Positions 25,417 to 59,814 of a stretch of DNA of 64,000 nucleotides are shown in pieces. Position 1 is the first letter of the stretch; each line of letters begins with the position of its first letter. A program made the translations under genes and the position numbers. Under the pieces are notes generated by a model. The model had not been told where the DNA came from, made no database searches, and saw only the letters and a program-made list of their open reading frames with translations. The DNA is from Geobacter sp. AOG2 (GTDB lineage: Bacteria; Desulfobacterota; Desulfuromonadia; Geobacterales; Pseudopelobacteraceae), in assembly GCF_019972295.1 (NCBI RefSeq), contig NZ_BLJA01000001.1, forward strand, positions 1,334,049 through 1,398,048, given 5' to 3'.

Positions 25417-25785
25417 TCACTCCTCCGACTCCTCCAGTTCGGCCAGAGTCGGCTCAGTTCTGAGACTTCGCTGATTGTTTATCCTTCCAGTGGTGTTTTC
25501 GATCAATCTGGATAACTTGTCTGCTGCGCCCTTGACGGCCCGATCCAGGGTTAAGGCCTGATGAGTGGCCGCAATGGGCTGACGGCCTTCCGGCCTGGCT
25601 TCCATAACGCACCGCTGCCCGTCTTTGCCCCTTTCTTTGTCGCTGTTCTCATTGCTCAGATGGACCTCGACCCGAGTGATGTGGTCGCTGAACCGGCTCA
25701 GGGCCTGTTCGGTTTCTTGTCTGATATAGTTAGCCAGAGCTTCGTTGCTTTCAATGTTGCGGTCGGTATTGATTTGGATCTGCAT
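25417..25785 (-). CDS. Ribosome hibernation/HPF-RaiA family protein
   Basis: A 122-aa protein of the sigma-54 modulation/HPF family: MQIQINTDRNIESNEALANY at the start, ALSRFSDHITRVEVHLSNEN in the middle and AADKLSRLIENTTGR near the end. The family binds the 30S decoding region and inactivates ribosomes in stress or starvation. This is the short form, without the C-terminal dimerisation domain. AAAGGGGAG precedes the ATG. It is the first full gene after a sigma-54 promoter with a 34-bp palindrome upstream (25919-26061), so hibernation is likely switched on by that regulon. Confidence 0.8.
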   Translation of the reverse strand: MQIQINTDRNIESNEALANYIRQETEQALSRFSDHITRVEVHLSNENSDKERGKDGQRCVMEARPEGRQPIAATHQALTLDRAVKGAADKLSRLIENTTGRINNQRSLRTEPTLAELEESEE

Positions 25786-25918: not shown

Positions 25919-26061
25919 AGCAATTAGCGCGCCATGGCATACCGATAAACCCTGGTTTACAACTATTTGATTGTGGGCTGGAAAGTAAAAAATGGAAGAG
26001 CCGGCGAGAGTATGTCGGCTACGAAAACCGTCATATTTAACATAACTGCCAAATAATACGG
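25919..26061 (-). promoter_or_regulatory. Sigma-54 promoter with IHF-like site and 34-bp palindromic enhancer, upstream of HPF
   Basis: On the minus strand, the -24/-12 element is TGGCGCG-CTAA-TTGCT (25919-25934). An IHF-like site AATCAAATAGTTG (25960-25972) is a perfect match to WATCAA-N4-TTR. The palindrome (26028-26061) has right arm TGTTAAATATGACGG. The gap from palindrome to -24 is 93 nt. Transcription would run into the HPF-DUF302 gene run. The order is the classic one for sigma-54 enhancers. Confidence 0.8.
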
Positions 26062-30700: not shown

Positions 30701-31972
30701 TCATTTGAAGAATGCGACCATGTAGGCCAGGTTATCTTTGTACTCCAGGTTGCCCAGATGGCCGCCGCGCGGGTAGATTTTGGCCCGCTCGCCGAAGAGT
30801 TGCCGCAGGTAATCGAGCTCCGCCTTGGTCAGAATGAAGTCGTTTTCGTTGGTCATCACGCCGAACTTGGCGGACGACTTCAGGTACCCCTCGATGCTCC
30901 TGAGGCCCAGGGAAGCGACGTACTCCTGCTTGGTGAGCCCCGGTCGCCGCTTCTGGAAAAAGGGGAACAAATACTCGTTGAAATAGTCGAAGAAGCTCAG
31001 GTGGCTGGAGACCAGGAAATAGTCGAACAGGGAGTCGGTGGGGCTCAGCACCCGGTTCTTCGGCACGACGTAGCCGCTGTTGGTCACCACGTCTGACGAG
31101 AAGATCATGCCGGCCAGGCCAATGCGGTAGGAAAGCCCGATCAATCCGGCGGTTTCCTCGCGGGAGAACAGTTTCTCCGCATAGATCGCGTAGATAAAGT
31201 TCTCGTTAATGGCGACGAAATTGCCATAGCGATAGAACTGGCTGAACTTGGCCAACATCCTGTTGAAAAAGACGCCCTGTTTCTTGGACCCTCCGGGGAT
31301 CTGCTTCAGCATATCCTCGATCCGTGTCACCGAATTGTACAGGCTTACCGATGGGTTGATCATGAGTACCTTGCGAAAGTTGAAGACCCGGCGCTCCTCG
31401 TCCAACTTGGCCACGAAGGCGGCCTGGGTAGCTCCCAGGCTGTAGCCGCCCAAATAGAATGAAGAAACCTCGATATCGCCTTCTACCTGCTTCCAGGCGG
31501 CCTCCATGGCGCGGTACAAGTCAGCCGCGTCCTCGGTCAGGTCGCCGGGGACGCCGTTTTGTGAAGCGGTGACGATAAAATTGGAGGTGGACGGCGACGG
31601 CAGGGTGATGACATGGAAGCCGGCCTGGTAGAAGGCCTTCATCATGGTCAACAGCTTGGAAGTCCGGTCGTTGGCGCCGGCTCCGCCTATCAGAAAGACC
31701 AGCGGCGCCTTTTGCTTCTGGTAGGCAAAGGTGCAGTGCAGCCCATCTTCGTAAAAGAAGATCGGCGCCCTCTGCCGGTCCGGGAAGATATGGAGCACGA
31801 GCTGGCGGGTGCGTGCAGGTTCGGGGAATTCGGGGATGAGGTTCGCCGGTGTCCCGATGATGGAGGCTTCATATGCTCCCGTGATCGGGTAGCCGTAGTT
31901 GTCATCCGCCGCAAGGACTGGCAAAGGCAACAGGACGATGCAGGCGATGAACAACAGTCTCAGATGCTTCAT
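30701..31972 (-). CDS. Exported alpha/beta hydrolase-fold protein
   Basis: A 423-aa protein with a signal peptide (LLFIACIVLLPLPVLA). The mature part has an alpha/beta hydrolase core: APLVFLIGGAGANDR near residue 90, then a nucleophile elbow GGYSLGATQAAF, and a late H in GGHLGNLEYKD as the candidate catalytic histidine. It is probably a periplasmic serine hydrolase. Its tight linkage to mlaA (19 bases) suggests a role in lipid turnover, perhaps on lipids retrieved from the outer membrane. The ATG at 31972 overlaps a 21-codon mini-ORF by four bases. Substrate unknown. Confidence 0.7.
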   Translation of the reverse strand: MKHLRLLFIACIVLLPLPVLAADDNYGYPITGAYEASIIGTPANLIPEFPEPARTRQLVLHIFPDRQRAPIFFYEDGLHCTFAYQKQKAPLVFLIGGAGANDRTSKLLTMMKAFYQAGFHVITLPSPSTSNFIVTASQNGVPGDLTEDAADLYRAMEAAWKQVEGDIEVSSFYLGGYSLGATQAAFVAKLDEERRVFNFRKVLMINPSVSLYNSVTRIEDMLKQIPGGSKKQGVFFNRMLAKFSQFYRYGNFVAINENFIYAIYAEKLFSREETAGLIGLSYRIGLAGMIFSSDVVTNSGYVVPKNRVLSPTDSLFDYFLVSSHLSFFDYFNEYLFPFFQKRRPGLTKQEYVASLGLRSIEGYLKSSAKFGVMTNENDFILTKAELDYLRQLFGERAKIYPRGGHLGNLEYKDNLAYMVAFFK

Positions 31973-32094: not shown

Positions 32095-32239
32095 GGCAAA
32101 TAGCCTGCCAAGAACCGAAAGAATCAGGAGTCTGGAGTTGCTCTTTAATAACAGGCCATTAGGTTGCCGGGAAGGGATCGGGGAAGTAGGAAACGATTCG
32201 GTTAGCCTCAATATTTGGTGGAACCGCAATATATGGAGG
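32095..32239 (-). promoter_or_regulatory. Sigma-54 promoter with diverged 34-bp palindrome, upstream of hydrolase-mlaA
   Basis: On the minus strand the element TGGCAGG-CTAT-TTGCC occupies 32095-32110. The palindrome at 32206-32239 is the most diverged copy (left arm CCTCCATATATTGCG), but its 95-nt distance to the -24 matches the others. No convincing IHF site is seen at the expected place. It faces the mini-ORF, hydrolase and mlaA genes. Confidence 0.6.
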
Positions 32240-32356: not shown

Positions 32357-35014
32357 ATGAAAAATGAACCTAACTCGTCGATAAACGATAAGAAACCTGC
32401 CGCTACCTCCCCAATGGCCACCTCACCCCGGAAGGAGCGGCCACCCTTTCCCATCGTCGGCATCGGCGCCTCGGCCGGCGGGCTGGAGGCGCTGGAGCAG
32501 TTCCTGGGGCATGTGCCCGCAAACAGCGGCATGGCCTATGTCATCGTCCAACACCTGGACCCGACCCACAAGGGAATCCTCCCCGAATTACTCCAACGCA
32601 TGACCGGAATGGAGGTATTCCAGGTCAGGGACCGGATGCGGGTCAAGCCGGATAGCGTCTATGTGATCCCCCCCAACAGGGACATGTCCATTCTGCACGG
32701 TGTGCTGCACCTGTTCGATCCGACGGCGCCCCGCGGTCTGCGGCTCCCCATCGATTTTTTCCTCCGTTCCCTGGCCGAGGACCGGCAGGAGCAGAGTATC
32801 GGCGTGATCCTCTCCGGCATGGGTTCCGACGGCACCATGGGGCTGAGGGCCATCAAGGAAAAAGCGGGGCTGGTGCTGGTGCAGGAGCCGGTCTCCGCCA
32901 AATTCGACAGCATGCCCAGGAGCGCCATCGATGCCGGGCTGGCCGATCTGGTGGCCCCGGCCGAGGAGTTGCCGGCCAAAATCGGCGACTATCTCCGGCA
33001 CGCCCTGATCATATCCAAGGCCGAGCACCCGCTGGAGGAGAAGGACCAAAGCGCCCTGGAGAAGGTCCTGATACTATTGCGGGCCAGGACTGGCCAGGAC
33101 TTCTCCATGTACAAAAGGAGCACCGTCTATCGCCGGATCGAGCGGCGCATGGGCATTCACCAGATCGACCGGATCGCAGCTTACGTCCGTTATCTTCAGG
33201 AGAACCCCCAGGAGGTGGATCTGCTCTTCAAGGAGCTTCTGATCGGCGTGACCAGTTTTTTTCGCGACCCGGCGGCCTGGGAACATCTGCTGGGAGAGGC
33301 CATCCCGGCGCTCCTGGCGTCCCGCCCGGCCGGAGGGACGCTACGGGCTTGGTCAACCGGCTGTTCGACCGGCGAGGAAGCCTATTCCCTGGCCATTGCG
33401 TTCAAGGAAGCGCTGGAGCTGGTTAAGCCCACGGGGAACTTCAAACTGCAGATCTTTGCCACCGACCTGGATGCGGACGCCATCGACAAAGCCCGCCAGG
33501 GCTTCTATCCGGACAACATTGCCGCCGATGTCTCCGCCGGGCGGCTCGAACGGTTTTTCATCAAGGAAGCGAACGGCTACCGGGTCGGCAAGGAGATCCG
33601 GGAGATGGTCACCTTCGCCACCCAGAACCTCATCATGGACCCGCCCTTTACCAAACTGGACATCCTCATCTGCCGCAATCTTCTGATCTACCTGACGCCG
33701 GAGCTTCAAAAAAAAGTCATGCCGCTCTTTCACTACAGCCTGAATCCGGACGGGGTCTTGTTCCTGGGGAGCGCGGAAACCGTCAGCACCTTCACCGACC
33801 TCTTTGGGCCGCTGAACATCAAATCGAGACTCTTCCGGCGGCGCGAAGCCGTCCTGCGTGCCGAACCGCTCGCGTTTCCCGCCACATTCACGCACCTGGA
33901 AGCGGGAGCGCACAAGGAACTAATGATGCCGAAGCCAGCCGCCAATCTCCAATCACTCGCCGACCAACTGCTGCTGCAGTATTTTTCCCCGCCGGCCGTA
34001 CTGACCAACGACAAGGGCGATATCCTCTACATCAGCGGCCGGACCGGCAAATATCTTGAGCCGGCGGCCGGCAAGGCCAACTGGAACATCTTCGCCATGG
34101 CCCGCGAAGGGCTCCGGTTCGATCTGGGCACCGCCTTTCAGAAGGCGCTCCGCCAAAAAGAGGCGATCCTTGTCACGGGGCTCAAGGTCGAGGGAGGGAG
34201 CGGTCCCCAGAGCGTCGATATCACGGTCAAGATGGTTGAAGAACCCGAGGCCATGCGGGGTATGGTGATGATCGTCTTCAACGACGTGGCGACGCCCCTG
34301 GAAAAGAAAGTGTCGGGCCGCTCCAGGTCTGCGACTGCCGGTTCCGCCAGGGTTGTTGAGTTGGAGCAGGAACTCCAGAAATTACGCGAAGCGCTCCAGA
34401 CGACCCGCGAGGAGATGCAATCCTCCCAGGAAGAGCTGAAATCCACCAACGAGGAGTTGCAGTCCACCAACGAGGAGTTGCAGTCAACCAACGAGGAGTT
34501 GACCACCTCGCGGGAAGAGATGCAGTCCCTGAACGAAGAGCTGCAGACGGTGAATGCCGAGCAGCAATCCAAAATGGACGACCTTGCGCGGGTGAACGAT
34601 GACATGAGGAACCTGCTCAACAGCACGGAGATCGTCACCGTGTTCCTGGACGGCAAACTCCATGTCCGGCGGTTCACCAGCGGGGCGGACAAGCTCTTCA
34701 AGCTGATTCCGGGGGATGTGGGGCGGCCGCTCAGCGACATTGCCAGTGACCTGAATTATCCCGAGATGATGGAAGAGGCGCGGGAGGTGCTGCGGACGCT
34801 GATCTTTTCCGAGAAGCAGATCGCCGCCACCGACGGGCGTTGGTTCTCGGTGCGCATCATGCCCTACCGCACCATGGAGGACGTGATCGGCGGCGTGGTA
34901 ATGACCTTTGCGGACATAACCGCTTTCAAACGTGCTGAAGCCGAACTGCGCGCGGAGAATGAACGGCTCAAGGGCCTGCTTGAGGCGGGGGGGGGTAGCC
35001 ATGGGAACCATTAA
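32357..35014 (+). CDS. CheB-CheR-PAS chemotaxis-type signalling fusion
   Basis: An 885-aa cytoplasmic protein. CheB methylesterase domain (about 30-210) with a full catalytic set: Ser39 in GASAGG, His66 in VIVQHLDP and Asp158 in GMGSDGTMG. CheR methyltransferase domain (about 225-490) with [15 protein letters not shown] and ICRNLLIYL. Then a PAS-like region, a long coiled coil with repeated STNEELQ units (about 700-740) and a C-terminal PAS (about 755-875). The CheB part lacks a receiver. Such fusions are not part of classical chemotaxis arrays and act in stress signalling. It overlaps the sigma-54 activator gene by 14 bases, so they probably form a signal-transduction pair. No strong ribosome site is seen. 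Confidence 0.88.
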
Positions 35015-36725
35015 AGATAAGAGCCCATCAGCCGATGCCGCCGAACTGCGCCGCCATGCGGAGGACCGTTTGCAGGCGAAAAGGGATGGATTGCAGCCGA
35101 ACCGCATCAAAACCGAGATGCAGAGGTGCGGCCATGAGTTGGAGGTCCACCAGATCGAGCTGGAGATGCAGAATGCAGAGTTGCGCGACGCCCAGAATGA
35201 GCTTGAGCTGTCCCGGGACAAGTATGCCGAACTCTATGACTATGCTCCTGTCGGCTATTTCACCTTTGATACCCACGGGACCATCCTGGAGGTAAATCTC
35301 ACCGGTGCTCAATTATTGGGGGTCGAGAGGCAACAACTGACCAACATGCCTTTTACCGGTTTTATTTCCGATGTGAATGAGAGAGAGATCTTTTCCAATC
35401 ACCTTGCCTTGGTTATGCGACGGCAGGTCATACGGCGATGTGAGATCAAACTCACGGGAAAAGACGGCACGGTGATCCACGGCCAGCTTCAGAGCGTCGT
35501 GGTCGCCATCGATGACAAGGCCAGCTACATCCTTACCTCCATCGTTGACGGCACAGTCCGCAAACAATTGGAAGAGAAACTGAAAAAGGCGCATGACAAC
35601 CTGGAGCTGATTGTCGCAGAACGGACAGAAGATCTGGTCAAGGCGAATGAGCACCTCACGAAGGAGATAGAAGAACGCAAGAGGTCGGAAGCGGCGCTCC
35701 AGGACGCCTATGCGGAAATAAAGCAGTTGAAAGACCGGCTCCAGGCCGAGAACAGCTATCTGCAACAGGAGGCCGCCCGGGTGTACAACTTCGGCGAGAT
35801 CGTCGGCCAGAGCAGCGCCATCTCGTATGTATTTTTCCGGGTCGAGCAGGTGGCGTCCATGGACGCGACCGTCCTGCTCCTGGGCGAAACCGGCACCGGC
35901 AAGGGGGTCATCGCCCGCACCATCCACAGTCACAGTGCCCGCAAGGATCGGCCGATGATAACGGTCAACTGCACGTCGCTGCCGGCAAACCTCATCGAAA
36001 GCGAACTCTTCGGGCGTGAGAAGGGGGCCTTCACCGGGGCCCATGCGCGACAGATGGGACGCTTCGAACTGGCAGACGGCGGCACCATCTTCCTCGACGA
36101 AATCGGCGAAATGCCCCTGGAATTGCAAAGCAAGCTGCTTCGGGTCATTCAGGACGGCGAGTTCGAGCGGTTGGGCAGCCCCCGCACCACCAAGGTAGAT
36201 GTCCGGATCATCGCCGCCAGCAACCGGAACCTGGAGGAAGAGATCAAGAAGGGCAAGTTCCGGGAAGACCTGTTCTACCGGCTCAACGTGTTCCCCATCA
36301 CCATCCCGCCGCTCCGGCAGCGCACGGAAGACATCCCGCTGCTCGTCAATCACTTCATTGGCAAATTCAACAAAAAGATGGGTAAGAGGATAGAGGCCGT
36401 ATCAAAAGAAACCATGACCGCCCTTGAGGAGTATCACTGGCCCGGCAACGTTCGGGAGTTGGAAAATGTCATCGAACGGGCGGTAATCACCAGCCAGGGG
36501 AGCGCACTCCAGGTTGTGGACCGGTTCGAAACCTTCAAGAAGGCGGGGGAGTCGCCAGGGCAGGAGGTCAAAGCCCTTGCCGAGTTGGAACAGGACCACA
36601 TCCTCCAGGTACTCCAGAAAACCGGTTGGCGCATCGAAGGGAAAAACGGGGCGGCGACACTCCTCGGCCTCAACGCCAGCACCCTTCGCGCCCGGATGCG
36701 CAAGTACGGCATCGCCCGGCAATGA
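35001..36725 (+). CDS. PAS-domain sigma-54 enhancer-binding protein
   Basis: A 574-aa activator. A coiled helical start (residues 12-75), a PAS domain (about 75-185), a coiled coil (185-262), an AAA+ sigma-54 domain (265-500) and a C-terminal Fis-type HTH (526-572). The AAA+ domain has Walker A GETGTGKG (295-302), the sigma-54-contacting loop GAFTGA (342-347) and Walker [10 protein letters not shown]. It has no receiver, so the PAS signal is probably sensed directly. The ATG at 35001 follows a G-rich site and overlaps the CheB-CheR gene. The helical start and PAS closely resemble those of the histidine kinase at 53016. Ten palindromic sigma-54 modules flank it, making it the best candidate for their activator. 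Confidence 0.92.
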
Positions 36726-36800: not shown

Positions 36801-37073
36801 ATGAAATTCATGCACCTGCCAATGCTCTCCACCGCCCTTTTCTTCCTCTGCTCGTGTACCCTTTTCTACAACAAACAACCCGACCCGGCATCGGGAGTGC
36901 AGTCCCCCAAACCTCTGGCCGTGCCGGTCGGCAAAAACTGGCAGGTAATCGAGAAGGCTCCTGAACTGACCAACGAAGGCGAGCGCCTTCCTTTTCAGAC
37001 CGAGCAGTCCTTACAGCCGGAGGGGGCAACGACCGCACCACCAGCAGACAAACGCAAGATCGTGCCGCGCTGA
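36801..37073 (+). CDS. Small lipoprotein
   Basis: A 90-aa protein with a signal peptide ending at a lipobox (LFFLCSC, Cys19 region), then a short Pro-rich mature part with no recognisable domain. AAGGA lies seven bases before the ATG at 36801. It lies 75 bases after the sigma-54 activator gene in the same direction. Unknown function. Confidence 0.55.
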   Translation: MKFMHLPMLSTALFFLCSCTLFYNKQPDPASGVQSPKPLAVPVGKNWQVIEKAPELTNEGERLPFQTEQSLQPEGATTAPPADKRKIVPR

Positions 37074-37141: not shown

Positions 37142-37287
37142 TCGTCATATTTGGTAGTTATGTCGGATATGATGGATGCCGTTAACGGTTTTCATTTAAC
37201 TCCTCTCGTTATAATTTCTATTTTAACCACATAATCAAACCGTTGCATTCGCAGTGTCCGCAAGCGCTCTCTGGCGCGTTAGTTGCT
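37142..37287 (+). promoter_or_regulatory. Sigma-54 promoter with IHF-like site and 34-bp palindrome, upstream of 37413 gene
   Basis: Palindrome at 37142-37175 (left arm TCGTCATATTTGGTA), IHF-like AATCAAACCGTTG (37233-37245, perfect to WATCAA-N4-TTR), and -24/-12 element TGGCGCG-TTAG-TTGCT (37272-37287). The palindrome to -24 gap is 96 nt. The gap 37074-37412 holds nothing else that I can recognise. Confidence 0.82.
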
Positions 37288-40504: not shown

Positions 40505-40650
40505 AGCAACGAACGAGCCAGATGAAGTCTGCGGAGGCCACGAGCGCAACAGGCTGATCCTGCTGTGCATATTCGTTTGGAATGAGCCCGCGGCCAGGAA
40601 AAGCCGCCATGGAAATCCGTCACGTTTAACATAAGCGCCAGATATGACGG
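40505..40650 (-). promoter_or_regulatory. Sigma-54 promoter with IHF-like site and 34-bp palindrome, for the 50-aa gene
   Basis: On the minus strand the element TGGCTCG-TTCG-TTGCT is at 40505-40520, the IHF-like GATCAGCCTGTTG at 40547-40559, and the palindrome (left arm CCGTCATATCTGGCG) at 40617-40650. The palindrome to -24 gap is 96 nt. Confidence 0.8.
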
Positions 40651-40678: not shown

Positions 40679-42202
40679 TTATCGCTGTTCCAGGTACCTG
40701 TTGTCGTTGAACATGCCGACCCAACTGATTTTTTCGGTAATCTTCCTGAAATGGTATCCATAGATGGCAAAGGTGATGGCCAGGCTGAACAGGCGGGGCT
40801 GCCTGACAATCGACCAGAAAAAGAGCTTCCAGAAGTAGAACCGCTCCTTGCCGATGACCCCAAGGAACAGCATTGATTTGAAGAACGCGCCGATATATCC
40901 GGACTTGAGGCGGAACGGCCTTTGATGTTGCGAACGGTACACTTTGAGAAATTTGATCACCCGTTGGTAATACTGGCGAGGGGCATAAATGGTGGTGAGA
41001 ATGGTGCGGTAGCCACTGATAAGTTCCTCGGGGCTCATACTTGGAATGAAGTTGAGGGATACGGCGGTGTTGTTGCCCGAGGTTTCCCCAAGCAACCTGC
41101 CTTCCTGGAGCAGCCGCTGGTGGAGCTTGGTGCCGCTCAGGGCGGTGAGCATCCCGACCATGGCGGTAACGATGCCGCTCTCCTGGATGAAGGAGATTTG
41201 CCGCTCGAATATTGACGGAGGATCGCTGTCAAAGCCGACAATGAAACCGGCCTGCACCTGCAAGCCCGCCAGTTGGATCTTCCTGACGCTGGCCAAAAGG
41301 TCACGGTTTTTATTTTGTACCTTGCCGCTTTCGCTAAGCCCTTCGTCATGTGGGGTTTCAATGCCGATAAAGACCTCCTCAAAGCCGCTCTTGACCATCA
41401 GGGCCATCAGTACACCATCATCAGCCAGGTCGATGGACGCTTCGGTGTAAAAATCGTAGGGGTGGTTATGTCTGTCCGCCCAGTCGATAATCGCCGGCAG
41501 TGTGTCGGTCTTCAGTTTGCGTTTGTCTCCGATGAAATTGTCGTCTACGAAAAACACTCCTCCCCGCCACCCCCATTGGTGGAGGGCGTCCAACTCCCGG
41601 ACAAGCTGTTCACTGCTTTTTGTCCGGGGTTTTCGGCCGAACAATTGGGTAATATCGCAGAATTCACAGTCGAACGGGCATCCACGGGAATATTGGATAT
41701 TCATGGCGCCGTATTTTCGGGAATCAATTAATCGCCAGAGCGGAACCGGAGTTTCTTTCATAGCCGGAAATCCGTCGGCGCGGTAAACGTGGCCGGCACA
41801 ACCCTTCTCCACGTCCTCCAGAAAGGGACCGAGAGTGATCTCCGCCTCGCCGAGAACCAGGTGATCGACAGCGTCAAAGTCTGCCGGAGCAGTGGTAAAA
41901 AGCGGCCCGCCAGCAACCGTCCTGACGCCCAGGCCCCGGCACCGCTCCAGGATGTCGTTCACGGATTGCCGCTGGATGCTCATGGCGCTGATGAAGACAT
42001 AGTCCGCCCATGAAATATCCTTGTCGGCAAGCTTCTGCACGTTCATGTCTATGAGCCTTTTTTCCCACGCCTTGGGAAGCATCGCGGCCACTGTCAGAAG
42101 ACCCAACGGAGGGAACGGCGCCTTTTTGCCTACGAATTTCAGGGCATGGCGGAACCCCCAGAAGGTGTCAGGGTACTCGGGATAAACAAACAAAATTTTC
42201 AT
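40679..42202 (-). CDS. B12-binding radical SAM protein (DUF4070 type)
   Basis: A 507-aa enzyme. The N-terminal part is a cobalamin-binding-like fold (LFVYPEYPDTFWGF, APFPPLGLLTVAAMLP). The radical SAM core has the cluster motif GCPFDCEFC (Cx3Cx2C, about residues 172-180) and DDNFIGDK. The C-terminal 120 residues match DUF4070, with amphipathic segments. The family includes HpnP-type hopanoid methylases, but no hopanoid genes are seen here, so the substrate is open. It is served by a sigma-54 promoter with palindrome (42384-42529), unusual for such an enzyme. Confidence 0.82.
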   Translation of the reverse strand: MKILFVYPEYPDTFWGFRHALKFVGKKAPFPPLGLLTVAAMLPKAWEKRLIDMNVQKLADKDISWADYVFISAMSIQRQSVNDILERCRGLGVRTVAGGPLFTTAPADFDAVDHLVLGEAEITLGPFLEDVEKGCAGHVYRADGFPAMKETPVPLWRLIDSRKYGAMNIQYSRGCPFDCEFCDITQLFGRKPRTKSSEQLVRELDALHQWGWRGGVFFVDDNFIGDKRKLKTDTLPAIIDWADRHNHPYDFYTEASIDLADDGVLMALMVKSGFEEVFIGIETPHDEGLSESGKVQNKNRDLLASVRKIQLAGLQVQAGFIVGFDSDPPSIFERQISFIQESGIVTAMVGMLTALSGTKLHQRLLQEGRLLGETSGNNTAVSLNFIPSMSPEELISGYRTILTTIYAPRQYYQRVIKFLKVYRSQHQRPFRLKSGYIGAFFKSMLFLGVIGKERFYFWKLFFWSIVRQPRLFSLAITFAIYGYHFRKITEKISWVGMFNDNRYLEQR

Positions 42203-42383: not shown

Positions 42384-42529
42384 CGCAACTAACGTGCCAG
42401 AGAAGCCCTGGGAACACGGGGATTAAAAGGGGTTGATTGTATGCAGAAAAATGAAGATGAGCAGTGCCGGAAAAGGGGCAAGCCGCCAACGGAATCCGTC
42501 AGATTTAACATGGCTGCCATATATGACGG
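42384..42529 (-). promoter_or_regulatory. Sigma-54 promoter with IHF-like site and 34-bp palindrome, for the radical SAM gene
   Basis: The minus-strand element TGGCACG-TTAG-TTGCG (42384-42399) is the closest to the sigma-54 consensus of all ten. The IHF-like AATCAACCCCTTT lies at 42426-42438 and the palindrome (left arm CCGTCATATATGGCA) at 42496-42529. The palindrome to -24 gap is 96 nt. Confidence 0.83.
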
Positions 42530-42776: not shown

Positions 42777-42922
42777 CCGCCATATATGGCAGTTATGCCA
42801 AATATGATGGAAATTATGGATGTATTTCCCTCCACACCAGATGCTTTTTACCTTGTTTTGCCAGTACAATCAGGCCGTTGCATTCGCAGTATCCAGTAGT
42901 ATTCTCTGGCGCGTTAGTTGCT
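42777..42922 (+). promoter_or_regulatory. Sigma-54 promoter with IHF-like site and 34-bp palindrome, for the BON gene
   Basis: Palindrome at 42777-42810 (left arm CCGCCATATATGGCA), IHF-like AATCAGGCCGTTG at 42868-42880, and element TGGCGCG-TTAG-TTGCT at 42907-42922. The gap is 96 nt. Confidence 0.83.
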
Positions 42923-43094: not shown

Positions 43095-43421
43095 ATGGTA
43101 ACATCGCATCGCATTTTGAAATTACTGGTCTGCTCCATGCTGACGGCCGCGCCTCTTACCGCATTCACGGGGTATGCAGCAACGGAAAAACACGAAAGCA
43201 CCGGCCAGTATGTGGATGACTCCGTCATCACCACCAAGGTAAAAGCCGCGATCTTCGGGGAAAAAACGCTGAAAACGCTGCAGATTAACGTCAAGACGTT
43301 CCAAGGAGTGGTTCAGTTGAGCGGTTTTGTCGATTCGCCCCAAAGCGTGACGAAAGCAGGAGAGGTTGCCGGCAGCGTCGAGGGGGTTAAAGAGGTGAAA
43401 AACGACCTGCTGGTGAAATAG
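43095..43421 (+). CDS. BON-domain periplasmic protein (OsmY-like)
   Basis: A 108-aa exported protein: signal peptide (LLVCSMLTAAPLTAFTGYA), then one BON domain (DDSVITTKVKAAIFGEKTL, VVQLSGFVDSPQSVTKAGEV, VKNDLLVK). BON domains bind phospholipid or other envelope surfaces in osmotic stress. Its paralog at 52420 is about 70% similar by eye but is a lipoprotein; here the lipobox cysteine is a tyrosine (FTGYAATEKH against LMGCAATQKH). AAGGAG precedes the ATG. It lies 173 bases after a sigma-54 promoter. Confidence 0.82.
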   Translation: MVTSHRILKLLVCSMLTAAPLTAFTGYAATEKHESTGQYVDDSVITTKVKAAIFGEKTLKTLQINVKTFQGVVQLSGFVDSPQSVTKAGEVAGSVEGVKEVKNDLLVK

Positions 43422-43808: not shown

Positions 43809-44445
43809 ATCGAGGCAGGCGTGTTGAAGAAATACCAAGCGAACAAAGGCCCAACGGTATTGGCCCGGTGCCATGAGACCTGGGTACGGGATGCCATCGG
43901 GCAGAGTTACCCGGAGAACGACGTAAAAAACAGTTTTTGGCTGCCATCCCCCTTTGGAATGAGGTATGTCGTCACGCCGGTAAGGCGAAGGTAAGTGCTG
44001 TGCGCTTGGCCGAGATACTACCTTGAGTTTAGTAGTATTCACCCCGAAAAGCCGCCGGCATCGCCCGCCATATATGGTAATTATGTCAACAATGACGGGT
44101 TTGTTGGCGGTTTTTTCTTTCTCCTGCGTACCATTCTTCCGTTTATCCCAATGTATTCAAAGTGTTGCTCACATGATATTGGCAGGTGCCACTCTGGCGC
44201 ACTTGTTGCGATGTTCCTGGGAGGCGAGACTTTATGCGCTGCCATATTCTGTGAGGATTCAGCGGTTATGAGCAATGCCTGATGCCTGCAACGTAATGAT
44301 TGAGAACACTCTGCATTAAAAACCTGTGCAGTAAAAAGAGAGGGGGTGAATACATTGTTAATCAGGTTGGTGAGCTGTTTGTAGCAATTGGAGCAATAGC
44401 GCTCAGATTCGTGTGAGGAATTGCAGTTAAAAGGGGAATAAGATT
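43809..44445. other. Intergenic region holding the PEP-CTERM gene's regulatory module
   Basis: About 640 bases. The sigma-54 module (44065-44210) lies in the middle. Between its promoter and the PEP-CTERM start (44446) are 235 bases of leader with only very short open frames. The 256 bases before the palindrome show no gene. Confidence 0.5.
44065..44210 (+). promoter_or_regulatory. Sigma-54 promoter with IHF-like site and 34-bp palindrome, for the PEP-CTERM gene
   Basis: Palindrome at 44065-44098 (left arm CCGCCATATATGGTA), IHF-like ATTCAAAGTGTTG at 44155-44167 (one mismatch), and element TGGCGCA-CTTG-TTGCG at 44195-44210. The gap is 96 nt. Confidence 0.8.
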
Positions 44446-45162
44446 ATGAAAAAAATGATGGTACTACTGGCAGGGGCGGTTTTGCTACTAACGCAAAACA
44501 CAGCGGTAAATGCATATACTATCGATTACTCGCATGCCACAACTGGTTCTGAATTTACATCTAACTATTCCAGTACGTTGAATGACTTTAAGTTGCTAAC
44601 GTTTGATGGTACGACCCCTGGGAATGTCAATTCGTCAAGTACCAAAAGCGATCTCCCTTGGACCTGGACCGGAACGGCTACGGTTGTAAATGGCTCTGCT
44701 ACCGGGCTGTATGCTGCGCCATTTGGGGCGGGAACAGCCGATACATCCAATTTCCTGGCGGTTCCGAATCCAACTGCAAATGGCAGCGTACGCGTTCAGT
44801 TGGGGGCGCTGTACAATTACTTTGGCCTGTGGTGGGGCTCTGTGGATAGTTACAACACCCTTTCCTTTTATAATGGAGATATGTTGGTTGCATCCTTTAC
44901 CGGAGCGGATGCGATCAGTGCAAGCGTGGCGAACGGAAACCAGACGGCTTCCTCAACAAATCTCTATGTGAACTTTCTTGATCTCCCGTTGTTCGACAGG
45001 TTCGTTATGGGAAGTACCAATTTTGCCTTCGAGGCTGACAATATTGCGATAGGAAACTCAGCGCTTCCCGTACCCGAGCCTGGCACCATGGTTTTGCTCG
45101 GCATAGGCCTGTTTGCCGTTGCCACCTGCTGTAAGCGCCGCATGAACCATCTGGAAGCCTGA
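44446..45162 (+). CDS. PEP-CTERM sorting-domain protein
   Basis: A 238-aa exported protein. Signal peptide (MMVLLAGAVLLLTQ...NAYT), a beta-rich Ser/Thr/Asn-rich middle and a C-terminal PEP-CTERM signal (VPEPGTMVLLGIGLFAVATC then KRR). The signal is cut by an exosortase, so the mature protein is surface-exposed or released into extracellular polymer. No exosortase gene is in this window. It lies downstream of a sigma-54 module and seems to be a single-gene transcript. Confidence 0.85.
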   Translation: MKKMMVLLAGAVLLLTQNTAVNAYTIDYSHATTGSEFTSNYSSTLNDFKLLTFDGTTPGNVNSSSTKSDLPWTWTGTATVVNGSATGLYAAPFGAGTADTSNFLAVPNPTANGSVRVQLGALYNYFGLWWGSVDSYNTLSFYNGDMLVASFTGADAISASVANGNQTASSTNLYVNFLDLPLFDRFVMGSTNFAFEADNIAIGNSALPVPEPGTMVLLGIGLFAVATCCKRRMNHLEA

Positions 45163-45557
45163 TCCATGCCTGGTACGGATTGGCATAAAGGCGCTGATAT
45201 CATCGCTCCATCGTCTCGCAGGATTCACCCGTAATGGTCACCAGCGTGGTCCGTCATATATGGCAATTATGCCAAATATGATGGATTGCGCTGGAGGCTT
45301 TATCCCCGGTTCCCTTACCGTATTAGTAGGTTTATCCTTTAAAATAAGCTATTTGAGCTTTTAGTGCCTGCAGGTGTCTTCTGGCATATTTGTTGCGATT
45401 TATCTTTCGGACAGAGCAGAAATACGGTCATGTCTTCGGCAAAATGTGTAGTGAGGATGAATAGTCGCGTTCCAATAGATGCAGACGCAACGTTCACATG
45501 GGCAAGGCCGCGTAATCTGTTCGCTGGTCAGCGATTAGCTCATATAGGAGAAATGCT
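45163..45557. other. Intergenic region holding the DUF3309 gene's regulatory module
   Basis: About 395 bases between the PEP-CTERM stop and the DUF3309 start. The sigma-54 module occupies 45251-45397. I see no gene. Confidence 0.45.
45251..45397 (+). promoter_or_regulatory. Sigma-54 promoter with IHF-like site and 34-bp palindrome, for the DUF3309 gene
   Basis: Palindrome at 45251-45284 (left arm CCGTCATATATGGCA, the cleanest copy), IHF-like AATAAGCTATTTG at 45343-45355 (two mismatches), and element TGGCATA-TTTG-TTGCG at 45382-45397. The gap is 97 nt. Confidence 0.8.
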
Positions 45558-45811: not shown

Positions 45812-46375
45812 ATGAAGAAGTTTATTATTTTGGCTATGGCAATGGTTTTGGGGTCGGCTTTGATTTTGGGCTGCGCCACGATGCACACATGGCCCGATTC
45901 TGAAAGAAGCGCCGAGAACAAGATGGTCGTAATCCAGGAGAAGATCGGGGATGGCCTGAAGACCGGGGCGCTTTCCCTTGATCAGTCCCAGATGTTTCTG
46001 AAGACGCTGAAGGTTATTCGAACTGATTATGCGGAACTGAGAGACAAAAAGGTATCCGAGGAAGAATGGAACAAGCTTCATGTGCGGCTTGATGCGCTTG
46101 GAGAAGAAATAAACAGAGCCCTTTCCCGTCCTGTGAAGATTGAAGGGCCGATGAATGGGGACAGGATTGTCACACTTCAAAGAAGAATTGATGACGGAAG
46201 AACCAGCGGTCGCTTACCTCCAACGGAGGGGAGAGAGTATCAGGACAGACTGGACTCCATTCGGAGAGAATATCTGCGGATGACGGAAGACGGCAGATCC
46301 TCTACGTCAGAAGAGAGAACAGATATTTCCAACCGGCTTGATTCTCTGGAAAAGGATATAAACAGATTCAAGTAG
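45812..46375 (+). CDS. Lipoprotein with an internal tandem repeat
   Basis: A 187-aa lipoprotein. The lipobox LILGC gives Cys21. The mature part holds two related ~67-residue charged helical units: the first with IQEKIGDGLKTGALS and VIRTDYAELRDKKVS, ending LDALGEEINRAL; the second with LQRRIDDGRTSGRLP and SIRREYLRMTEDGRS, ending LDSLEKDINRF. This looks like an internal duplication. GGAG precedes the ATG. It follows the DUF3309 gene by 98 bases, possibly on the same transcript. Function unknown. Confidence 0.7.
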   Translation: MKKFIILAMAMVLGSALILGCATMHTWPDSERSAENKMVVIQEKIGDGLKTGALSLDQSQMFLKTLKVIRTDYAELRDKKVSEEEWNKLHVRLDALGEEINRALSRPVKIEGPMNGDRIVTLQRRIDDGRTSGRLPPTEGREYQDRLDSIRREYLRMTEDGRSSTSEERTDISNRLDSLEKDINRFK

Positions 46376-47632: not shown

Positions 47633-48014
47633 CCGCTTTTGCAAGAAGTAGTGGCAACCTTTTTCGGACTGACCTATGTCTTGCATCGGGTTCGCCTCTG
47701 GGGGAGGCCGCCATATTTGGCGGTTATGTTAAATGTGATGGATGACACTGACGGCTTTCCTCTCACCGCAAATCCACTCTTTCCATTTACTACAGTACAA
47801 TCCGCTAGTTGAACCTTCACCTCGTTCTAATTTTCTCTGGCATGTTCGTTGCGATGTACCTTCTTTGTAGAGCATGAAGACTATCGTACTTCAATATGCA
47901 AATTTAGTTGTTGTTATCCTAAGGAGGTAGGTTATGGAAAAGCAGCATAGAGAACTCCACGAATGGGAGCTATTTGGCGGCAGAGAAACATGTCATCACA
48001 TCAAGGAGGAATTA
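47633..48014. other. Intergenic region with the regulatory module of the OmpW-OmpA operon
   Basis: The gap holds the sigma-54 module (47708-47853) and a leader of about 160 bases with a second in-frame start for the OmpW gene (47934). No other gene is seen. Confidence 0.5.
47708..47853 (+). promoter_or_regulatory. Sigma-54 promoter with IHF-like site and 34-bp palindrome, for the OmpW-to-OmpA operon
   Basis: Palindrome at 47708-47741 (left arm CCGCCATATTTGGCG), IHF-like AATCCGCTAGTTG at 47799-47811, and element TGGCATG-TTCG-TTGCG at 47838-47853. The gap is 96 nt. Six same-direction genes follow before the terminator at 52317. Confidence 0.82.
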
Positions 48015-48626
48015 ATGAAAACGAACAATATTCTGTTCCTGGCTCTCGCCGTTTTGTTGATCTGTATCGCGTCCCCGGCGGCCGCAGAGGATAAACCGGC
48101 AAACTACGTGGCGTTCAAAGGTGGGATCTATTCGCCCAGTTTGTCTCACGACGTTAATAACTTCAACGGCGGCAGCACGACCCATCTGGACAGCAAAACC
48201 GGATTCGCCGGCGAGGTCGCACTCGGTCATTACTTCCTTCCCATGTTGGCCCTGGAACTTGGAGCCGGCTACTTTCAGAGCAAGGGCTCCCCGGCGGCAG
48301 AACCGGGTGACACGATGTTGAAAGTCGTACCGCTGGTTGCAACCGGCAAGGTGCTGCTTCCGCTCGGTATCTTCGAGCCATACGGTTTGTTCGGGATCGG
48401 TGCCTATGTCACGGATTTGGACGTGTCAGGCAATACCGGCAACTTTCATGGTTCCACGAAAATTACCTATGGATTGCACGCCGGGGGCGGCTTCAACATC
48501 AATTTTTCGAACAGCATGTTTGTGGGGGTTGAAGGAAAATACCTCTGGGCCGAGCCTTCATTCGGCGGTCAGCATATCAGGCTGGACGGGTTTACCACGA
48601 CAGCCGATCTCGGATTCAGGTTCTAA
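48015..48626 (+). CDS. OmpW-like outer-membrane beta-barrel protein
   Basis: A 203-aa protein with a signal peptide (NNILFLALAVLLICIASPAAA) and a barrel of about eight strands (YVAFKGGIYSPS, FAGEVALGHYF, YGLFGIGAYVTD, ending ADLGFRF with the C-terminal Phe). OmpW-like barrels let small hydrophobic compounds through the outer membrane and are often stress-responsive. AAGGAGG lies five bases before the ATG at 48015. An upstream in-frame ATG at 47934 also has AAGGAGG six bases away and would add 27 residues before the signal peptide. It leads an operon of envelope-stress genes. Confidence 0.78.
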   Translation: MKTNNILFLALAVLLICIASPAAAEDKPANYVAFKGGIYSPSLSHDVNNFNGGSTTHLDSKTGFAGEVALGHYFLPMLALELGAGYFQSKGSPAAEPGDTMLKVVPLVATGKVLLPLGIFEPYGLFGIGAYVTDLDVSGNTGNFHGSTKITYGLHAGGGFNINFSNSMFVGVEGKYLWAEPSFGGQHIRLDGFTTTADLGFRF

Positions 48627-59668: not shown

Positions 59669-59814
59669 CCGCCATATATGGTGGTTATGTTAAATATGAC
59701 GGATGTCGTTAACGAATTTTCCTCCACTCGTACCTTCCCTTCACGCTTTGCCCAGTACAATTAGCCCCTTACAACCACAGTCCTCGTGGGTGCTCTTTGG
59801 CGCGTTTGTTGCGC
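59669..59814 (+). promoter_or_regulatory. Sigma-54 promoter with IHF-like site and 34-bp palindrome, for the 59881 barrel gene
   Basis: Palindrome at 59669-59702 (left arm CCGCCATATATGGTG), IHF-like AATTAGCCCCTTA at 59759-59771 (two mismatches), and element TGGCGCG-TTTG-TTGCG at 59799-59814. The gap is 96 nt. Confidence 0.82.

Follow-up and report, generated by a model that had tools for sequence, protein, structure and literature searches.

We analysed a stretch of 64,000 nucleotides from Geobacter sp. AOG2 (the window) that carries nine copies of a regulatory module, each with a 34-bp palindrome, an IHF-like block and a sigma-54 promoter in one order, orientation and spacing. We consider it highly probable that these modules are enhancer-dependent sigma-54 control units, in which an IHF bend lies between a palindrome bound by an enhancer-binding protein (EBP) and the promoter. 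The same elements are conserved across the order, and the best reading appears to be an order-wide sigma-54 regulon with a predicted IHF bend, common to Geobacter-like bacteria.

A position-fixed IHF-like block in the window

In the nine window modules a sigma-54 -24/-12 promoter lies 93-97 nt beyond the palindrome (Table 1). The palindrome consensus, CNGYCATATNTGGNNNTTATGNNANAYNTGAYGG, finds nine matches in the window at up to three mismatches, where shuffled sequences give an expectation of zero. Between palindrome and promoter, an earlier note on this DNA had reported a block of the form WATCAA-N4-TTR at nine coordinates; all nine were correct when the window was re-checked, with the end of the block lying 25-27 nt ahead of the -24 element (the T of TGG) in every one of these modules. 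The accepted IHF consensus is WATCAR-N4-TTR (PMC8421141). The note called two blocks perfect (25960 and 37233), which holds for the WATCAA form; under the accepted consensus the block at 42868 is perfect as well, and the other six have one mismatch each, so that 9/9 match at ≤1 mismatch. By the stricter WATCAA form four of the nine (40547, 45343, 47799 and 59759) have two mismatches, which the note had left unstated.

By itself the pattern occurs often in the window (46 matches at ≤1 mismatch versus 36 ± 6 in shuffles), so the case rests on its fixed position. At ≤1 mismatch, seven of the nine window modules hold the block at offset -39 from the -24 element and the remaining two are 1 nt off, whereas in shuffled spacers at most two of nine modules agree on any single offset. 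A block profile trained solely on modules outside the window scores the window's nine blocks at 15-29 bits; its 99.99th percentile in the background of both window strands is 10.7 bits. These results confirm the observation of a position-fixed IHF-like block in the window modules.

The count of nine blocks among ten modules was also right: the tenth module exists, though in degenerate form, and has no consensus IHF block at -39. It is kept in two genomes of the same genus, where CTAATnnYCnGTTATTA is conserved ~51 nt before the -24 element; this sequence may represent a weak IHF-like site that has shifted position. Elsewhere in the same genome (four loci, contig positions ~556122-578462) we noticed a second sigma-54 module family, whose upstream motif is instead TTCAWATTGAGAnnTacYTTRTCAAAA. 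At three promoters of this family an IHF-like core begins 28-30 nt before the -24 element; compared with the -39 offset seen in the palindrome modules, this is closer to the promoter by about one helical turn.

Table 1. Modules and EBP gene of the window (window coordinates; block match given against WATCAR-N4-TTR)
Feature	Strand	Palindrome	IHF-like block	Block sequence	Block match	Promoter	Gene
Module 1	-	26028-26061	25960-25972	AATCAAATAGTTG	perfect	25919-25934	precedes 25417-25785, S30AE-family (ribosome hibernation type)
Module 2	+	37142-37175 (putative EBP enhancer)	37233-37245	AATCAAACCGTTG	perfect	37272-37287, TGGCGCGTTAGTTGCT	
Module 3	-	40617-40650	40547-40559	GATCAGCCTGTTG	1 mismatch	40505-40520	
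Module 4	-	42496-42529	42426-42438	AATCAACCCCTTT	1 mismatch	42384-42399	precedes 40679-42202, radical SAM
Module 5	+	42777-42810	42868-42880	AATCAGGCCGTTG	perfect	42907-42922	precedes 43095-43421, BON domain
Module 6	+	44065-44098	44155-44167	ATTCAAAGTGTTG	1 mismatch	44195-44210	precedes 44446-45162, PEP-CTERM
Module 7	+	45251-45284	45343-45355	AATAAGCTATTTG	1 mismatch	45382-45397	precedes 45812-46375, lipoprotein-like
Module 8	+	47708-47741	47799-47811	AATCCGCTAGTTG	1 mismatch	47838-47853	precedes 47934-48626, outer-membrane beta-barrel
Module 9	+	59669-59702	59759-59771	AATTAGCCCCTTA	1 mismatch	59798-59813	
Tenth module, degenerate (32095-32239; spacing 95)	-	32206-32239				32095-32110	precedes 30701-31972
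EBP gene	+						34932-36725; PAS, sigma-54 activator AAA+, Fis-type HTH

Conservation of the block outside the window

The earlier note had named absence of the block from orthologous modules as one result that would speak against it; we ran this comparison, and the block is conserved. We assembled 112 extra modules from other loci of the same genome and from relatives. The criteria were a palindrome and a promoter, with the IHF block playing no part in the selection; a palindrome whose promoter could not be recognised was excluded, and genome-wide counts are pattern searches. Of 117 relatives, 51 contain the palindrome and hardly any contains its reversed control. In another collection, named palindrome matches come from Geobacter, Geomesophilobacter, Oryzomonas and other Desulfuromonadales/Deltaproteobacteria, with many MAGs.

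At offset -39 ± 1, the 112 outside modules include 45 perfect blocks, 81 at ≤1 mismatch and 103 at ≤2. The corresponding averages at other offsets are 0.02, 0.08 and 0.6 modules, and the largest value over 200 shuffles was 3 at ≤1 mismatch and 7 at ≤2. Kinship among the genomes means that the 112 modules cannot count as independent events, which the p-values take them to be. When a single module is taken per genome, 20 of 30 have the block at ≤1 mismatch, in seven of eight sampled genera. The block has one orientation (87 forward matches versus 7 scattered reverse matches). In the whole 3.9-Mb genome, a core followed by a -24/-12 element at 20-36 nt is found at six places, five of which are palindrome modules with one geometry. 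About 7% of the outside modules have no good block at the position, and some of these (four loci) keep palindrome and promoter; the block is thus not absolutely required.

The TT bore out the expectation that the block would be as conserved as the -24/-12 element, and the ATCA letters did so approximately; the block as a whole did not. Across five orthologous or closely related module pairs, palindrome and promoter share 91% identity and the block, with its free N included, 76%, compared with 66% for the spacer and 58% for the gap from block to promoter. These figures bear on whether the block is merely functionless similarity left over from recent duplication of whole modules, as might be suspected from their recurrence within one 34-kb region with some flanking letters in common. 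The block has outlasted the spacer and gap around it, and over 104 aligned modules the information content is uneven, with its peaks on the IHF letters. We therefore reject descent alone as the explanation of the block, and leftover duplication is disfavoured as very improbable.

Shape of the block

Among block-bearing modules the TT of TTR is kept in 99%, the C in 90% and the T in 88%, within a variable spacer. When aligned on the core, the modules show an A/T run at 14-10 nt before the core, about 9 nt upstream of it, then ATCA, then TT, then R; WWW at 12 to 10 nt before the core is found in 93% of block-bearing modules, versus 1-10% a few nucleotides further downstream. Strong IHF sites have two parts, a consensus half and an upstream A-tract half (PMC8421141), and the block together with its A/T run is, judged by its letters, this two-part structure.

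Parts of the same stretch could be taken for an overlapping sigma-70 promoter or UP element, given that TTGCAC is like a -35 hexamer and that the A/T run is UP-element-like. There is, however, no -10-like hexamer ~17 nt downstream, where the sequence is C/T rich, and an UP element would not conserve the C of ATCA or the TT at the frequencies just given; we reject this explanation as very improbable. We also considered, and do not claim, a hairpin in the 5' UTR, 3' of the promoter. Some modules fold well there (e.g. ..GAGCACTGTCGTGC..), but the mean folding z is -0.35 versus +0.21 for control spacer, and no columns beyond +20 are conserved in the module alignment.

Some conserved letters fall outside the IHF consensus, namely CC 6-7 nt before the core and CAC after TTR, and because of them a contribution from another protein, or from residual common descent, is possible. 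The block might even be the site of a different sequence-specific protein that resembles the IHF consensus, either a distinct HU/IHF paralogue (eight PF00216 matches are present in the genome, of which at least three are alpha-type IHF) or an unrelated regulator. We regard this as improbable: the block has all the consensus letters plus the A/T run in a single orientation, it is non-palindromic and bears no resemblance to the EBP palindrome, and it sits where IHF does in other sigma-54 promoters (PMC3897727, PMC7962754).

Geometry and the proposed role of an IHF bend

In 115 of 121 modules, 93-98 nt separate palindrome and promoter; elsewhere within 300 nt of the palindrome, strong promoter matches appear only as single cases at 85, 87 and 104. 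The distance from block to promoter has an SD of 0.54 nt and that from block to palindrome 1.61, and modules with spacings of 87, 103 and 104 still hold the block at -38/-39. The spacing outliers (85, 87, 103, 104, 106 and 106) lie near one helical turn on either side of 96; as these are only six cases, we do not claim helical phasing from them. In the first aligned set of 47 modules, which had previously been scored for the promoter, the -24 GG is present in all and the -12 GC in 45. Two promoters were seen in which TTGTA replaces TTGC at -12, with palindrome and block otherwise intact.

A mechanism that would fit this geometry is as follows. An EBP, most likely of the family encoded at 34932-36725, would bind the 34-bp palindrome, centred ~114 bp upstream of the -24 GG, while sigma-54 RNA polymerase is held closed on the -24/-12 element. 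IHF would bind the A/T run and the WATCAR-N4-TTR block, with the core centred ~34 bp upstream of -24, and its sharp bend would bring the activator onto the polymerase, where ATP hydrolysis would open the promoter.

A possible objection to this mechanism is that IHF mainly restricts promiscuous activation by other EBPs, or helps to recruit sigma-54 polymerase, rather than delivering the activator. Both roles of IHF are known at other sigma-54 promoters. The genome has 32 sigma-54-activator loci (PF00158 matches), and the block varies less in its distance to the promoter than in its distance to the palindrome; both observations favour such a role. The spacing from palindrome to promoter is nonetheless also tight, which is what one would predict if the bend determined how the activator makes contact, and the restricting or recruiting roles are compatible with activator delivery rather than exclusive of it. 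We think it unlikely, although a fair minority prospect, that restriction or recruitment is the main role, and we retain activator delivery across an IHF bend as the preferred reading.

Protein factors and the probable activator

The genome encodes RpoN (PF04552, 219 bits). It also encodes an IhfA-type protein (NF001401, 130.3 bits against a cut-off of 111), with two further alpha loci for three in total, and one IhfB-type protein (NF001222, 116.2 bits against a cut-off of 115); the IHF-type proteins narrowly miss the older TIGR00987/TIGR00988 cut-offs. With block sequence, orientation and position conserved, an A/T run present, and ihfA, ihfB and rpoN encoded, the earlier interpretation of the block as an IHF site is supported. 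Because this arrangement is found repeatedly among related bacteria, we regard the predicted IHF site as almost certainly genuine.

The EBP encoded at 34932-36725 is the likely reader of the palindrome. Among 117 genomes, 44 have both an EBP of this type and the palindrome, 7 the palindrome only, 9 the EBP only and 57 neither (Fisher p = 6e-16, with kinship ignored), and in roughly a dozen genomes a palindrome follows the EBP gene at 49-420 nt in the same direction. Several genomes have at least two such EBPs, which match the window EBP only from about residue 213 onward, at 70-80% identity; this restriction of the match suggests differing sensor domains on one DNA-binding half. In two genomes a module was observed directly before an EBP-like gene, which suggests autoregulation of the EBP. 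In the window a small lipoprotein gene (36801-37073) sits between the EBP gene and module 2, and at one outside locus its homologue lies directly behind a module.

More tentatively, the modules may be a rigid, order-wide cassette of palindrome, IHF bend and sigma-54 promoter, helically phased, that serves as a common socket for several EBPs; we see this as a possibility with the odds somewhat against it. If it were true, EBPs with the same DNA-binding half and different sensor domains would let many signals drive one stress/envelope regulon.

Target genes

The window targets comprise an S30AE-family protein, BON, PEP-CTERM, beta-barrel outer-membrane and radical SAM proteins and small lipoproteins, and the targets in relatives include CsbD, DUF3309, YflT and a CBM48 enzyme. 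A stress/envelope theme for the regulon is plausible from these annotations. We also observed, 3' of the module at eight loci, a recurrent gene of up to ~195 aa whose product starts M.IPDTxLEILTLGRFSLSVxGK..W; it adjoins an EBP gene in several genomes, and the first 70 residues of its product have no Pfam match.

As one window module precedes a PEP-CTERM gene, we considered the PEP-CTERM box, a 17-nt motif ending in TTTACA with a loose spacer of 62.8 ± 10.6 nt, whose regulator PrsR has a receiver domain (PMC1569441). That system, with PrsK/PrsR, likewise places a recurrent upstream motif and then a sigma-54 promoter before many genes of a genome. We rejected membership in the PEP-CTERM box/PrsR regulon: the window EBP scores 328.9 bits to TIGR02915 against a cut-off of 502.6, and it has a PAS domain and no receiver.

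Comparison with known systems

Placing IHF between an enhancer and a sigma-54 promoter is textbook biology, and in kind the system is therefore known; nif and Pu type promoters are sigma-54 promoters that have an upstream activating sequence and are assisted by IHF. The regulon, the palindrome and the rigid geometry are apparently undescribed in the open literature searched, and the palindrome letters gave no match in those papers; palindromic multicopy sequences of Geobacter are mentioned in the supplements of PMC2700814. The analysis thus puts forward, from DNA letters, a sigma-54 regulon and its probable activator common to Geobacter-like bacteria. More than 100 natural variants at near-constant geometry make an unusually clean set for relating IHF placement and helical phase to contact between activator and polymerase.

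A close known system is the IHF of Geobacter sulfurreducens (IHF alpha-1/beta-2), a related bacterium with duplicated ihf genes, for which the same E. coli consensus was used; the authors of that study anticipated that IHF would act at many RpoN promoters (PMC7962754). The modules suggest a role for this group's duplicated ihf genes. The IHF sites tested there belong to other genes and other positions, and the passages drawn on here describe no palindrome module or fixed placement.

The orp1/orp2 promoters of Desulfovibrio vulgaris share with the modules the order of EBP site, IHF site and -24/-12 element, the IHF core WATCAR-N4-TTR and an EBP site ~90-130 bp upstream (PMC3897727). The IHF sites of orp vary in position (-42, -79 and -43) and belong to single promoters (PMC3897727), whereas the modules described here repeat one site at one offset in more than 100 promoters of many genomes, together with a 34-bp palindrome.
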